A stretch of 64,000 nucleotides of DNA from Rhodobacterales bacterium. GTDB taxonomy: Bacteria; Pseudomonadota; Alphaproteobacteria; Rhodobacterales; Rhodobacteraceae. The position numbers were made by a program, and so were the translations under genes. Below are positions 13,117 to 17,534 of the stretch, piece by piece. The notes under the pieces were generated by a model, which was not told the origin of the DNA, made no database searches, and saw nothing but the letters and a program-made list of their open reading frames with translations. The stretch covers positions 1-64,000 of the forward strand of contig JANYFE010000104.1 of assembly GCA_025362795.1 (NCBI GenBank), given 5' to 3'. Each line of letters opens with the position of its first letter. Within the stretch, counting starts at the first letter, position 1.

Positions 13117-14142
13117 TCACCCCCAGTCCAGCACCACCTTGCCCGACAACCCCGACCGCATCACCTCGAACCCCGTCGCAAAATCCGCCACCCCGAACCG
13201 GTGCGTGATCACCTTCCGCACGTCTAGCCCGTTTTCCAGCATGGCGATCATCTTGTACCAGGTCTCGAAAATCTCCCGCCCATACACCCCCTTGATCGTC
13301 AGCGCCTTGAACACGATCCGGCTCCAGTCGACCGGAGATTTGCCAGGCGGTATCCCCAGCATGGCAATCTTGCCGCCCATCACCATCGCCTCGATCATCT
13401 GATCCAAAGCCTGCTGATTTCCAGACATCTCCATCCCGACATCAAACCCTTCCGACATCTTCAGCCGCGCCATAACGGTCCGCAAATCCTCGACAGCCAC
13501 ATTCACCGGTGTCACATCCGCCACGTCTGCCGCCAAAGCCAACCGCGCTGCATTCACGTCGGTGATCACCACATGGCGCGCGCCCACATGCCGTGCCACC
13601 GCCGCCGCCATGATCCCGATTGGTCCGGCGCCCGTGATCAGCACGTCCTCGCCAATCAAATCAAAGCTCAACGCCGTATGCACCGCGTTGCCCAACGGGT
13701 CCAGAATGGCCCCGATCTCATCGTCGATTGCATCGGGCAACGGCACGACATTGAACGCCGGCAGCCGCAGATATTCCGCAAACGCGCCCGCCTCATTGAC
13801 TCCAATGCCCCGCGTCGCAGGGTCCAGATGGAATTTCCCCGCCCGCGATTGCCGCGACAGTTTGCCAATCAGATGCCCCTCGCCCGAACATCTTTGCCCG
13901 ATGGCAAGCCCCTGCACCAAAGCCCCCATTGCCACGATCTCGCCCGCAAACTCATGCCCCGTGACCAGCCCCACCGGCACCGTCCGCGCCGCCCATTCGT
14001 CCCAGTTCCAGATGTGAATGTCCGTGCCGCAAATTCCGGTCTTCTTGACCTTGATCAGCACATCTTCCGGTCCGATCTCCGGCTCCGGACGATCCTCCAT
14101 CCACAGCCCGACTTCACCGCGCGACTTTGCCAGAACCTTCAT
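13117..14142 (-). CDS. tdh: L-threonine 3-dehydrogenase, lacking structural-zinc cysteines
   Basis: Tdh oxidises L-threonine to 2-amino-3-ketobutyrate with NAD; kbl next to it cleaves the product. The 341-residue MDR protein keeps the catalytic zinc ligands Cys38, His63 and Glu64, Thr40 and His43 of the proton relay, and the NAD motif GAGPIG at 171-176. The lobe that binds structural zinc in E. coli Tdh through Cys93, 96, 99 and 107 has Gly93, Ser96, Ser99 and Asp107 here, so that zinc cannot bind as usual. Length and remaining motifs are normal. The start overlaps the kbl stop by four bases (ATGA). Confidence 0.93.
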
Positions 14143-15326
14143 GCCAACACCCCAGTTTCCCGCCCCGCCTCGGCAAAGGCCGCCAAAGCAAAATCCAGAT
14201 CAGCGCGGGTCAACGCCGCATTCATCTGCGTCCTGATCCGCGCCGCCCCCCGTGGCACCACCGGGAAAAAGAACGCCGACACCATCACACCCCGCGCGTC
14301 CAGCGCGCGGGCAAATGCCTGCGCCAGCGGTGCCTCACCCATCATAACCGGAATGATCGGATGTTCCCCCGCCAGCAGCCTGAACCCCAGACCCGCCAAA
14401 CCCGCCCGCCAATAGTGCGCGTTTTCAAACAGTTGCGCCCGCTGCGTATCTGCCGCCTCCACGATATCCAGTGCCGCCAGCGCCGCGCCGACCACCGCAG
14501 GCGGCAGCGCGTTCGAGAACAGATACGGCCGCGCCCGCTGTCGCAGTAGATCCACAACCGGTGCAGAGGCCGCGACATAGCCACCCAGGGCGCCGCCCAA
14601 AGCTTTGCCCAAAGTCCCGGTCAGAATGTCTACCTTGACCCCGGCGTGTGCAGGTGTTCCGCGCCCCTGCGGCCCGATGAACCCGGTTGCATGGCAATCA
14701 TCCACCATCACAATCGCATCAAACTTATCCGCCAACACCCTGATTTCTTTTAGTTTCGCCAGATATCCGTCCATAGAGAACACGCCATCTGTCGCGACCA
14801 GAATGTACCTCGCACCTTCCGCCCGCGCCTTGACCAGTTGCGCCGCCAGATCCGCCATATCCGAATTCGCATAGCGATAGCGTCGTGCCTTGCACAACCG
14901 GACCCCATCAATGATCGAGGCATGGTTCAGACTGTCAGAGATGATCGCGTCCTCCTCTCCCAAAAGCGGCTCGAACAGCCCGCCATTGGCATCGAAACAT
15001 GACCCGAACAGAATCGCCGCCTCCATCCCCAGAAACTGCGCCAACCGGGCTTCCAACGCGGCATGAATATCCTGCGTCCCGCAGATAAACCGCACCGAGG
15101 CCATGCCGAACCCATGGCCCCGCATCGCCACCTCTGCAGCCGCAATCAACCGGGGATCGTCAGCCAACCCAAGGTAATTGTTGGCACAAAGGTTAAGCAT
15201 TGATCGCCCGCCAACCGTCACATGTGCGCCCTGAGCGCCCTCGATAAAGCGTTCCCGCTTGACCAGACCCTCGGCCTCGATCCCACTCAGCACACCTCGC
15301 AAGTGCTCCAAAAACCCATCAGCCAT
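14139..15326 (-). CDS. kbl: Glycine C-acetyltransferase (2-amino-3-ketobutyrate CoA ligase)
   Basis: Kbl is a PLP enzyme of the alpha-oxoamine synthase family that splits 2-amino-3-ketobutyrate with CoA into glycine and acetyl-CoA. The 395 residues contain [16 protein letters not shown] at 45-60, [11 protein letters not shown] at 131-141, the VDDCHATG motif at 208-215 and the PLP lysine K241 in [10 protein letters not shown]. The ATG at 15326 is chosen because the protein then starts like E. coli Kbl and leaves room for a promoter about 65 bases upstream; the frame remains open further upstream. It is the first gene of the kbl-tdh operon. Confidence 0.95.
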
Positions 15327-15389
15327 CACATAAATCCCTCCACGTTGACCTCGCCCAGCAGCCGACCAACCGCGATGTCCATATAACGG

Positions 15390-15419
15390 ATTATATTCCG
15401 TAATCACGGAATCTTTCAA
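15390..15419 (-). promoter_or_regulatory. kbl-tdh promoter with palindromic operator in the spacer
   Basis: Read on the minus strand, TTGAAA (15419-15414) and TATAAT (15395-15390) are separated by 18 bases, a near-consensus sigma-70 promoter. The spacer and flanks hold a perfect inverted repeat, ATTCCGTGATTACGGAAT (15412-15395): 7-bp arms separated by GATT. A second half-site ATCCGT follows the -10 box. The site is placed to block RNA polymerase. The upstream helix-turn-helix/cupin regulator is the natural candidate to bind it, by position only. Confidence 0.75.
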
Positions 15420-15468
15420 GACATTCGCTGCCAGACATTTGGGGAACTAGGCGCTGGCCCCCTCCCGC

Positions 15469-16029
15469 TCAGCTGTCCTGCACGATCAATATCGCCCGCG
15501 CCGCCCCGTCCATCGCATGAATTTCATGGTTGCGATCCGCTGGATACCGCGCCGTATCTCCCGGTCCCAGGCGAGATTCCTCTTCGCCGGAAATCACCCG
15601 CAAATTCCCCGAAATCACCGTCAAACTCTCGCGGCACCCCGGCGAATGCGGGTCCGAAACCAGCCCGCCGCCCACACCAAAGCTCAGATCATAGACCTCA
15701 TGTTCGCCCACCGCTTCGGCGGGTGACAGAATTCGGATGATCAGCCCGTGCCCGCGTCCAGCGATAATTGGGGCTGCTTCCGCCCGCACGATTTCGATCC
15801 CCGGGCGTGGCCGCCCCTCCAGAAGCCCCGCGAAGTCCACCTGCAAGGCCTGGGTCAGATTCCACAGGGTTGCCACCGTCGGGGAACTTTCGCCGCGCTC
15901 GATCTGTGACACCATCGACCGGCTGACGCCCGACAATCTCGCGACCGCGTCCAGTGACAGTCCACGGGTTTTCCGCGCTTCACGCAACGACGCTGCCAGC
16001 CGGTCATGGATTTCAGAACGTGGAGTCAT
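15469..16029 (-). CDS. XRE-family regulator with C-terminal cupin domain
   Basis: This 186-residue protein has an N-terminal helix-turn-helix (about residues 6-62; LDAVARLSGVSRSMVSQIERGESSPT) and a C-terminal cupin (about 100-180), the layout of regulators such as PuuR and SutR that sense small metabolites. MTPRSEIHDR is taken as the start; a start twelve codons upstream is possible. It lies directly upstream of kbl-tdh on the same strand, 142 bases away, and a palindromic operator lies in the gap between them. Control of threonine/glycine catabolism is therefore likely but not shown. Confidence 0.88.
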   Translation of the reverse strand: MTPRSEIHDRLAASLREARKTRGLSLDAVARLSGVSRSMVSQIERGESSPTVATLWNLTQALQVDFAGLLEGRPRPGIEIVRAEAAPIIAGRGHGLIIRILSPAEAVGEHEVYDLSFGVGGGLVSDPHSPGCRESLTVISGNLRVISGEEESRLGPGDTARYPADRNHEIHAMDGAARAILIVQDS

Positions 16030-16068: not shown

Positions 16069-17457
16069 TTAGGTGCCGCAGAACGTGACATAGGGTGCCA
16101 GCCCTTCGGGTGCGGGCAAGACAAACCCCTCCCGCCCCGCTTCTGGCCCGAACGGATCGCGCACCGCCGCCAACAGCGCCTCGAACGGCGCCATGTCGTC
16201 CGCCGTCGCCGCCACCAGCGCGGCTTCTACCCGATGATTGCGGGGAATGACCGCCGGGTTGGCCGCCATGATGCGCGCCTCGAACCCCGGCTCCACACGG
16301 GCCAGCCATACCGCTCGCCATGCACGCAATTCCGGCACATCGAACAACCGCCGGAAGGTCAGCGTCCAATCCGCCCCCACCATCGCCTTTAGCAGCCCTT
16401 CAATCAGCGCCCCGTCTCCAGCATCTTCTCCCAACAGGCCAAGCTTCAACCGCATCACTTGCAGCCAGTTGCGCTGATATGTTCCGGCAATCGCCGCCAG
16501 CCGCTCATTCGCAAGATCGACAGCCTTCGCCTCATCCGCGTCAAAGAATGGCAGCAGCGTCTCGGCCAGCCGCGCCAGATTCCACGTCATTATGGCAGGC
16601 TGGTTGCCATAAGCATACCGCCCCTGCCGGTCGATAGAGGAAAATAACGTTCCGGGTGCATAGGCATCCATGAAGGCGCAGGGCCCATAGTCAATCGTCT
16701 CGCCCGACAGCGCCATGTTGTCGGTGTTCATCACGCCATGCACAAACCCCAACCCCATCCATTGTGCAATCAGCCGCGCCTGACGTGCCACAACCGCATC
16801 AAACAGGGCCAGCGCCGGAACCTCTGCCGCCGCCGCCTGTGGGTAATGCCGCGCAATCGTATAGGCCATCAGGGCGGCCAGTTTGTCTGCCTCCCCCCGC
16901 GCCGAGAAAAACTGAAAAGTGCCGACCCGGATATGGCTGGCCGCGACCCGCGCCACCACCGCCCCCGGAAGCGAACCCGCTTCGCGCAAAACATTCTCGC
17001 CCGTCGCAACCACCGCCAGACACCGCGTCGTCGGCGCCCCCAAAGCCGCCATCGCCTCGGAAATCAGGTATTCCCGCAGCATCGGCCCGACGGCGGCCTT
17101 ACCATCGCCGCCGCGCGAAAACGGCGTGCGGCCAGAGCCTTTCAGCTGCAAATCCCACCGCCGCCCATCCGGACCGCGAAACTCGCCCAGCAAATGCGCC
17201 CGCCCGTCGCCAAGCTGCGGTGAAAACCCGCCAAACTGGTGCCCGGCATAGGCCAGCGCCGCAGGCTCCGCCCCCGCTGGCACTGTCGCCCCCGAAAGCC
17301 AATTGGCAGCATCAGCCTCGGTCAGGTCCAGCCCCAGATCGTCGGCAAGTCCCCGGTTCAGCACCAACAGTTTCGGTGCCGGCGCGACAGCCGGATCCAA
17401 CCGCAGATATGTCCCCGGCAGATCGCGCAGATAACTGTTGTCAAAGCGAAAGGTCAT
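16069..17457 (-). CDS. selO: Protein adenylyltransferase SelO (YdiU family)
   Basis: SelO is a pseudokinase that transfers AMP from ATP to Ser/Thr/Tyr residues of proteins, with a role in oxidative-stress responses in E. coli. The 462-residue protein shows the family blocks YAGHQFGGFSPQLGDGRAHLLGE (split at residues 70-92), LQLKGSGRTPFSRGGDGKA, the inverted-kinase nucleotide site LREYLISEAM and the catalytic HGVMNTDN...IDYGPCAFMD. It ends in TFCGT, where Cys takes the place of the selenocysteine found in some homologues. The second of two adjacent ATG codons is taken as the start. Confidence 0.93.
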   Translation of the reverse strand: MTFRFDNSYLRDLPGTYLRLDPAVAPAPKLLVLNRGLADDLGLDLTEADAANWLSGATVPAGAEPAALAYAGHQFGGFSPQLGDGRAHLLGEFRGPDGRRWDLQLKGSGRTPFSRGGDGKAAVGPMLREYLISEAMAALGAPTTRCLAVVATGENVLREAGSLPGAVVARVAASHIRVGTFQFFSARGEADKLAALMAYTIARHYPQAAAAEVPALALFDAVVARQARLIAQWMGLGFVHGVMNTDNMALSGETIDYGPCAFMDAYAPGTLFSSIDRQGRYAYGNQPAIMTWNLARLAETLLPFFDADEAKAVDLANERLAAIAGTYQRNWLQVMRLKLGLLGEDAGDGALIEGLLKAMVGADWTLTFRRLFDVPELRAWRAVWLARVEPGFEARIMAANPAVIPRNHRVEAALVAATADDMAPFEALLAAVRDPFGPEAGREGFVLPAPEGLAPYVTFCGT

Positions 17458-17534
17458 CACATCCCCCTTGCGATCATAGGACGCCCGAAACCTCCCAGCA
17501 AGTCTTGGGCCGGCACCTGAGAACTCTGTGAAGT

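Follow-up and report, generated by a model that had tools for sequence, protein, structure and literature searches.

The window (the whole 64,000-nucleotide stretch of Rhodobacterales DNA that was analyzed) carries on its minus strand the genes kbl and tdh of the threonine dehydrogenase pathway, preceded by a gene for a probable repressor. The first target gene, kbl (14139-15326, start at 15326), encodes glycine C-acetyltransferase (2-amino-3-ketobutyrate CoA ligase) and tdh (13117-14142), which shares 4 nt with the end of kbl, encodes L-threonine 3-dehydrogenase; kbl and tdh score above the curated cut-offs for NF005394 and NF003808. Directly upstream and in the same direction, as an earlier note on this DNA had claimed, lies a gene (15469-16029) for an XRE-cupin regulator of 186 aa, in which both an HTH_3 domain (PF01381, 58.5 bits, cut-off 23) and a Cupin_2 domain (PF07883, 30.5 bits, cut-off 27.2) are recognized. 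Upstream of the regulator is a conserved neighbor of the YdiU/SelO family (16069-17460, minus strand), selO, that we have used as a synteny mark for loci from which the regulator has been lost.

The best solved relative of the regulator is PDB 1Y9Q, an HTH_3-family regulator of Vibrio cholerae, which matches over nearly the full length (profile E 7e-33, Foldseek E 1.8e-18). Identity to the regulator model is 31% (Foldseek), with TM-scores near 0.5, an rmsd of 17.6 and mismatched relative placement of the domains; the structure prediction itself has a mean pLDDT of 80 and a pTM of 0.51, so that its domain placement is unreliable. The region of the recognition helix is near-invariant across 17 aligned orthologs. 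An exact assignment to PuuR (NF007408) is not supported, the score being 28.4 bits versus a cut-off of 211. Homologs at E<=1e-30 are found in 15/16 genomes of the genus, 54/149 of the family and 11/289 of the class, four of these 11 belonging to the regulator's own family. Paracoccus benzoatiresistens has two copies of equal identity (L202, L207) on separate contigs, with kbl found beside neither.

Between the regulator gene and kbl there is a single sigma-70-like site within 15320-15520, the kbl-tdh promoter (15390-15419, minus strand), with 11 of 12 consensus matches (mean for shuffles, 0.1). It consists of TTGAAA (15414-15419) and TATAAT (15390-15395) separated by a spacer of exactly 18 nt (15396-15413), as described previously, and its transcription start is predicted near 15383. 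The 7-bp inverted repeat that had been reported in the spacer is present as well: the palindrome ATTCCGTGATTACGGAAT (15395-15412, minus strand), referred to as O1 in what follows, is perfect (7-bp arms, 4-nt loop), reaches one base into TATAAT and leaves a single base of the spacer uncovered. O1 is the upstream of two predicted operator units of the class TCCG-N6-CGGA; the second, O2 (TCCGTTATATGGAC, 15377-15390, minus strand), was missed in the first reading and contains the predicted start. When the 21 local bases are shuffled 200,000 times, an inverted repeat with 7-bp arms and a loop of 0-4 nt appears in 337 cases; the window holds three repeats with such arms and loops of 4 nt, and 38 if loops of 0-8 are allowed. 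Palindromes by themselves are thus common in the window, and it is position and conservation that count. The string ATTCCGT-N4-ACGGAAT has a single occurrence in the 3.84-Mb genome.

We have compared 80 regulator loci of named relatives, in 60 of which kbl lies downstream and co-directional. The perfect palindrome is uncommon in the regulator-kbl intervals of relatives, and the recurring unit is a degenerate TCCG-N6-CGGA. A fixed layout is seen in 56 of the 60 loci, with O1 separated, mostly by 6 nt, from an O2 whose right half supplies the TTGAC of the -35 element (TTGAC follows a half-site in 58/60); O2 lies ∼21 bp beyond O1 and the -10 element ∼17 bp past the TTGAC, placing O1 near -57 and O2 near -37. 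In 58/60 a third unit, O3 (TCC-N8-GGA), covers the -10 element and the Shine-Dalgarno region, no more than 70 nt ahead of the start codon. More distant family members repeat the units differently, and by eye the last of these contains a probable -10 element, TATGnT. A stretch resembling GTATTTGGGCCAAGATGAA recurs after GC-rich CCCCGG runs in the regulator-kbl interval of many relatives (L024, L163, L173, L206 and others), and GTATTTNNNNCAAGATGAA has no match in the window with <=3 mismatches. In two loci from another alphaproteobacterial family (L072, L073) a regulator of 36-39% identity is divergent from tdh-kbl and units resembling ATCCAGTATAATGGAA lie between them; the operator code may thus predate the family.

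The expectation that ACGGAAT palindromes would mark the regulator did not hold in that literal form. TTCCGTN4ACGGAA is found in 18/149 family genomes, in three of them (G000, G078, G138) at the regulator/kbl locus, and a control with the pattern reversed is no less frequent. The exact string being uninformative, we used instead a degenerate 16-bp matrix built from the 56 named O1 sites and scored over the 200 nt upstream of kbl with a threshold of >=8; in the window the top score, 19.8, falls on O1. Motifs above this threshold precede kbl in 44/44 family loci with a regulator ortholog nearby (lowest score 10.2), in 8/8 family loci whose regulator lies at another genomic position and in 4/4 kbl genes of the same genus that are located away from the regulator, and in 0/34 genomes that lack the regulator (highest score 7.5). 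Some of the loci used to train the matrix are from the same species as test loci, which leaves the negative group unaffected. The earlier idea that the palindrome would follow the regulator in orthologous kbl promoters is therefore borne out for the degenerate motif, kept by 52/52 promoters whose genomes keep the regulator, with the exception of one distant locus (L100 in G004, regulator 43-46% identical) that has no motif before kbl and is excluded from this count.

Regulator and kbl also occur together. Among the 149 family genomes 53 have both, one the regulator only, 34 kbl only and 61 neither (Fisher p 8e-16, relatedness not corrected), and in the sole regulator-only genome (G147) kbl is cut by a contig end. 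In one genome of the genus (G153, 93% complete) the regulator is present and no kbl match is found at E<=1e-100. Mapped onto the kbl tree, the regulator label requires 14 changes (>=5 on well-supported branches) and the motif label 13, with regulator and motif both present in 51 cases, the regulator alone in one, the motif alone in none and neither in 34. Well-supported branches provide five independent pairs, of which four agree, none oppose and one shows no difference; the sign test (p 0.125) falls short of significance since five pairs are too few. At three loci (L121, L122, L145) selO lies directly before kbl, and both the regulator and the operator units are absent. Taken together, the comparisons strongly support the prediction that the local XRE-cupin regulator has a site at the palindrome in the kbl-tdh promoter of the window.

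A perfect palindrome filling the spacer, as the earlier note had it, is thus found in the window, while elsewhere the exact palindrome is not conserved and the filling of the spacer is confined to this one genome, because the promoter of the relatives sits 37-38 bp further downstream. At the downstream place (the TTGAC in O2 plus its -10 element) 58 named loci have 7-11 of 12 consensus matches and the window has 6; at the upstream place the same loci have 3-9 and the window 11. Only the window genome, among those compared, has a TTGAAA/TATAAT promoter at O1, with its new -35 element 38 bp upstream of the old one. The TTGACA of the relatives appears in the window as the decayed remnant TGGACA (15376-15381, minus strand), and CTGGGCGAGG (15349-15358, minus strand), located where the relatives have their -10 element and the beginning of O3, contains no recognizable form of either. 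The O2-kbl distance is ∼50 nt in the window, within the usual range (47-72 nt in the relatives), so that decay of the old promoter is attributed to substitution and not to deletion. A TGGACA-type O2 pattern occurs in 17/394 family genomes, and the 16 besides the window genome share a near-identical 24-mer unlike an operator, so that none of the other 393 genomes searched has the variant in an operator-like setting; the TTGACA form is found in 8/394. The promoter of the window genome seems to have moved and now to sit under older sites, and we infer that the new promoter is in use. We somewhat favor a history in which point changes in one lineage relocated the core promoter 37-38 bp upstream beneath unchanged operators, with repressor control kept and the old -35, -10 and O3 elements left to decay. 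The palindrome would thus have come to lie in a promoter spacer because the promoter shifted around a pair of operators that was there before it.

In 12 of the 16 genomes of the genus the O1-O2 sequence model has a single match each, at the kbl promoter; the four misses comprise one rearranged promoter (L112 in G150), two genomes with no kbl match (G151, G153) and one with a partial match (G156). In the window's own genome this model matches kbl only, and the regulon is accordingly treated as a single operon. The TCCGNNWTNNCGGA pattern has 12 strand matches in that genome, at 10 places. The second-best of its sites (L247, C53:46304, score 18.0) is intergenic, between an AraC-like gene and a gene for a peptide-transporter binding protein, and is a possible second target; another (L251, score 16.0) falls within a coding frame. 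Gene names around these two sites were assigned by eye from translations.

Units are also found at the regulator's own gene. In 30/138 regulator loci (25/104 linked to kbl, 5/34 unlinked) a unit scoring >=11 lies at the beginning of the gene or up to 150 nt ahead of it, nearly always across the regulator start codon, as in TTCCGTCATGACGGAA, a placement seen in more distant members of the family. In these loci (L079, L080, L083, L086, L103, L041 and others) a perfect or near-perfect palindrome such as TTCCGTCATGACGGAA is centered on the start codon, an arrangement which suggests tight autoregulation at the gene start, perhaps with a very short leader or none. No own-gene site was found in the same-genus loci L057-L061, and no match of >=8 precedes the regulator gene of the window.

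These comparisons make it very probable that a small local repressor of kbl and tdh binds at the palindrome, as one site of a pair. We infer that the regulator binds the sites, that it represses and that its ligand is a metabolite. In such a scheme a dimer of the regulator would occupy each TCCG-N6-CGGA unit, and the bound dimers would shut RNA polymerase out of the kbl-tdh promoter; filling of the cupin pocket by a metabolite of the threonine-glycine route, or by a by-product such as aminoacetone, would release the dimers and allow the threonine dehydrogenase pathway to be made. In the relatives O2 would act over the -35 element and O3 over the -10 element and the Shine-Dalgarno region, and it is this placement of operators on near-consensus promoters that favors repression. 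In the window genome, where the old core promoter has decayed and the new one lies over O1, the same two operators would still cover the promoter, as the new start is inside O2. Candidate ligands are threonine, glycine, aminoacetone and methylglyoxal, none of which is preferred, an amino acid or a close product being a reasonable class by analogy. An amino-acid-like ligand is plausible given the D-methionine held in the 1Y9Q cupin pocket, as stated in PMC7901475, and methylglyoxal is included because a Burkholderia regulator encoded near kbl-tdh responds to it (PMC4349456).

The main competing explanation is that the regulator activates kbl-tdh from sites upstream of and at the -35 element. 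The positions in the relatives, with O1 near -57 and O2 near -37, could also be used by an activator, and NceR is reportedly an activator of the XRE family. An activator is not called for, however, by promoters that are fairly near consensus (7-11/12 in 58/58), and O3 covers the -10 element and the Shine-Dalgarno region in 58/60 loci. On the window promoter O1 and O2 would likewise be in a position for repression if the new promoter is used, and all of the XRE-cupins studied in P. aeruginosa repress (PMC7901475). Activation therefore appears unlikely.

The link between unit and regulator comes from comparison, and the sites might in principle belong to a different DNA-binding protein that co-occurs with the regulator. 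Such a protein would have to account for sites that follow the regulator through changes of location, that are missing in all 34 genomes without it, that are lost jointly with it at syntenic selO-kbl loci and that also occur where its own gene begins in 30/138 loci, and we regard this as very improbable. A role of the palindrome as RNA, in a terminator or attenuator hairpin, would suit an inverted repeat between two co-directional genes, yet no terminator-like site or hairpin is present in 15320-15520, O1 of the relatives is upstream of the promoter and hence outside the kbl message, and the unit is retained in genomes where kbl and the regulator gene are no longer neighbors; we have rejected the hairpin, which has scarcely any likelihood left. 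Still less credible is a chance palindrome in an AT-rich promoter. The abundance of inverted repeats in the window (38 with loops 0-8) and the lack of conservation of the exact string would allow for it, but not the degenerate unit with its spacing, present in relatives with the regulator and absent in those without (G004 excepted), so that chance is rejected by the co-occurrence of motif and regulator together with the low frequency of such repeats in the local shuffles. We are left, with considerable confidence, with O1 and O2 as putative operators of the adjacent XRE-cupin repressor of kbl-tdh, released by a metabolite, and with a new promoter over O1.

The palindrome is real and, on the comparative evidence, appears to be functional. 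Across a large family, the Rhodobacteraceae as judged by the named relatives, the threonine dehydrogenase pathway gains a dedicated candidate regulator, an operator code and a regulon that probably has a single target, and for one XRE-cupin clade the ligand becomes directly testable. The comparison also provides a natural example, and a clean one, of how a promoter may shift while its operator stays in place and of how a regulator and its sites can disappear together.

Transcriptional control of kbl-tdh has a precedent in E. coli, where the operon is under the control of Lrp, a regulator of a different family from the XRE-cupin of the window. In Burkholderia, MgxR (Bxe_B3018) resembles the window regulator in being encoded near kbl-tdh and tied to the same pathway and its by-products, responding to methylglyoxal, and differs from what is proposed here in that it controls a neighboring transporter operon and not kbl-tdh; the available text of that paper (PMC4349456) contains no mention of XRE or cupin. 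We found no report of XRE-cupin control of kbl-tdh in the open-access literature searched, nor any mention of kbl in the available text of PMC7901475, and local repression by XRE-cupins is a known kind of control apparently not previously assigned to these genes. The closest parallel is with the local inhibitors of Pseudomonas, ErfA, PsdR, PauR, PA0535 and PA1359, for which PMC7901475 describes binding to palindromes within core promoters and inhibition of neighboring metabolic genes, the likely signals being pathway metabolites; a site at its own gene is reported for PauR and is not a fixed trait of XRE-cupins. The window regulator shares with these proteins an N-terminal XRE/HTH_3 helix-turn-helix and a C-terminal cupin, an adjacent metabolic target (in the window and in 60/80 named loci, unlinked in some genomes) and, as predicted by comparison, a palindromic site within the target's core promoter. 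Binding and repression have been shown for the Pseudomonas proteins, whereas here both are predicted, and the system of the window is set apart by its kbl-tdh target, by a different site and by an array of two to three units in a row.
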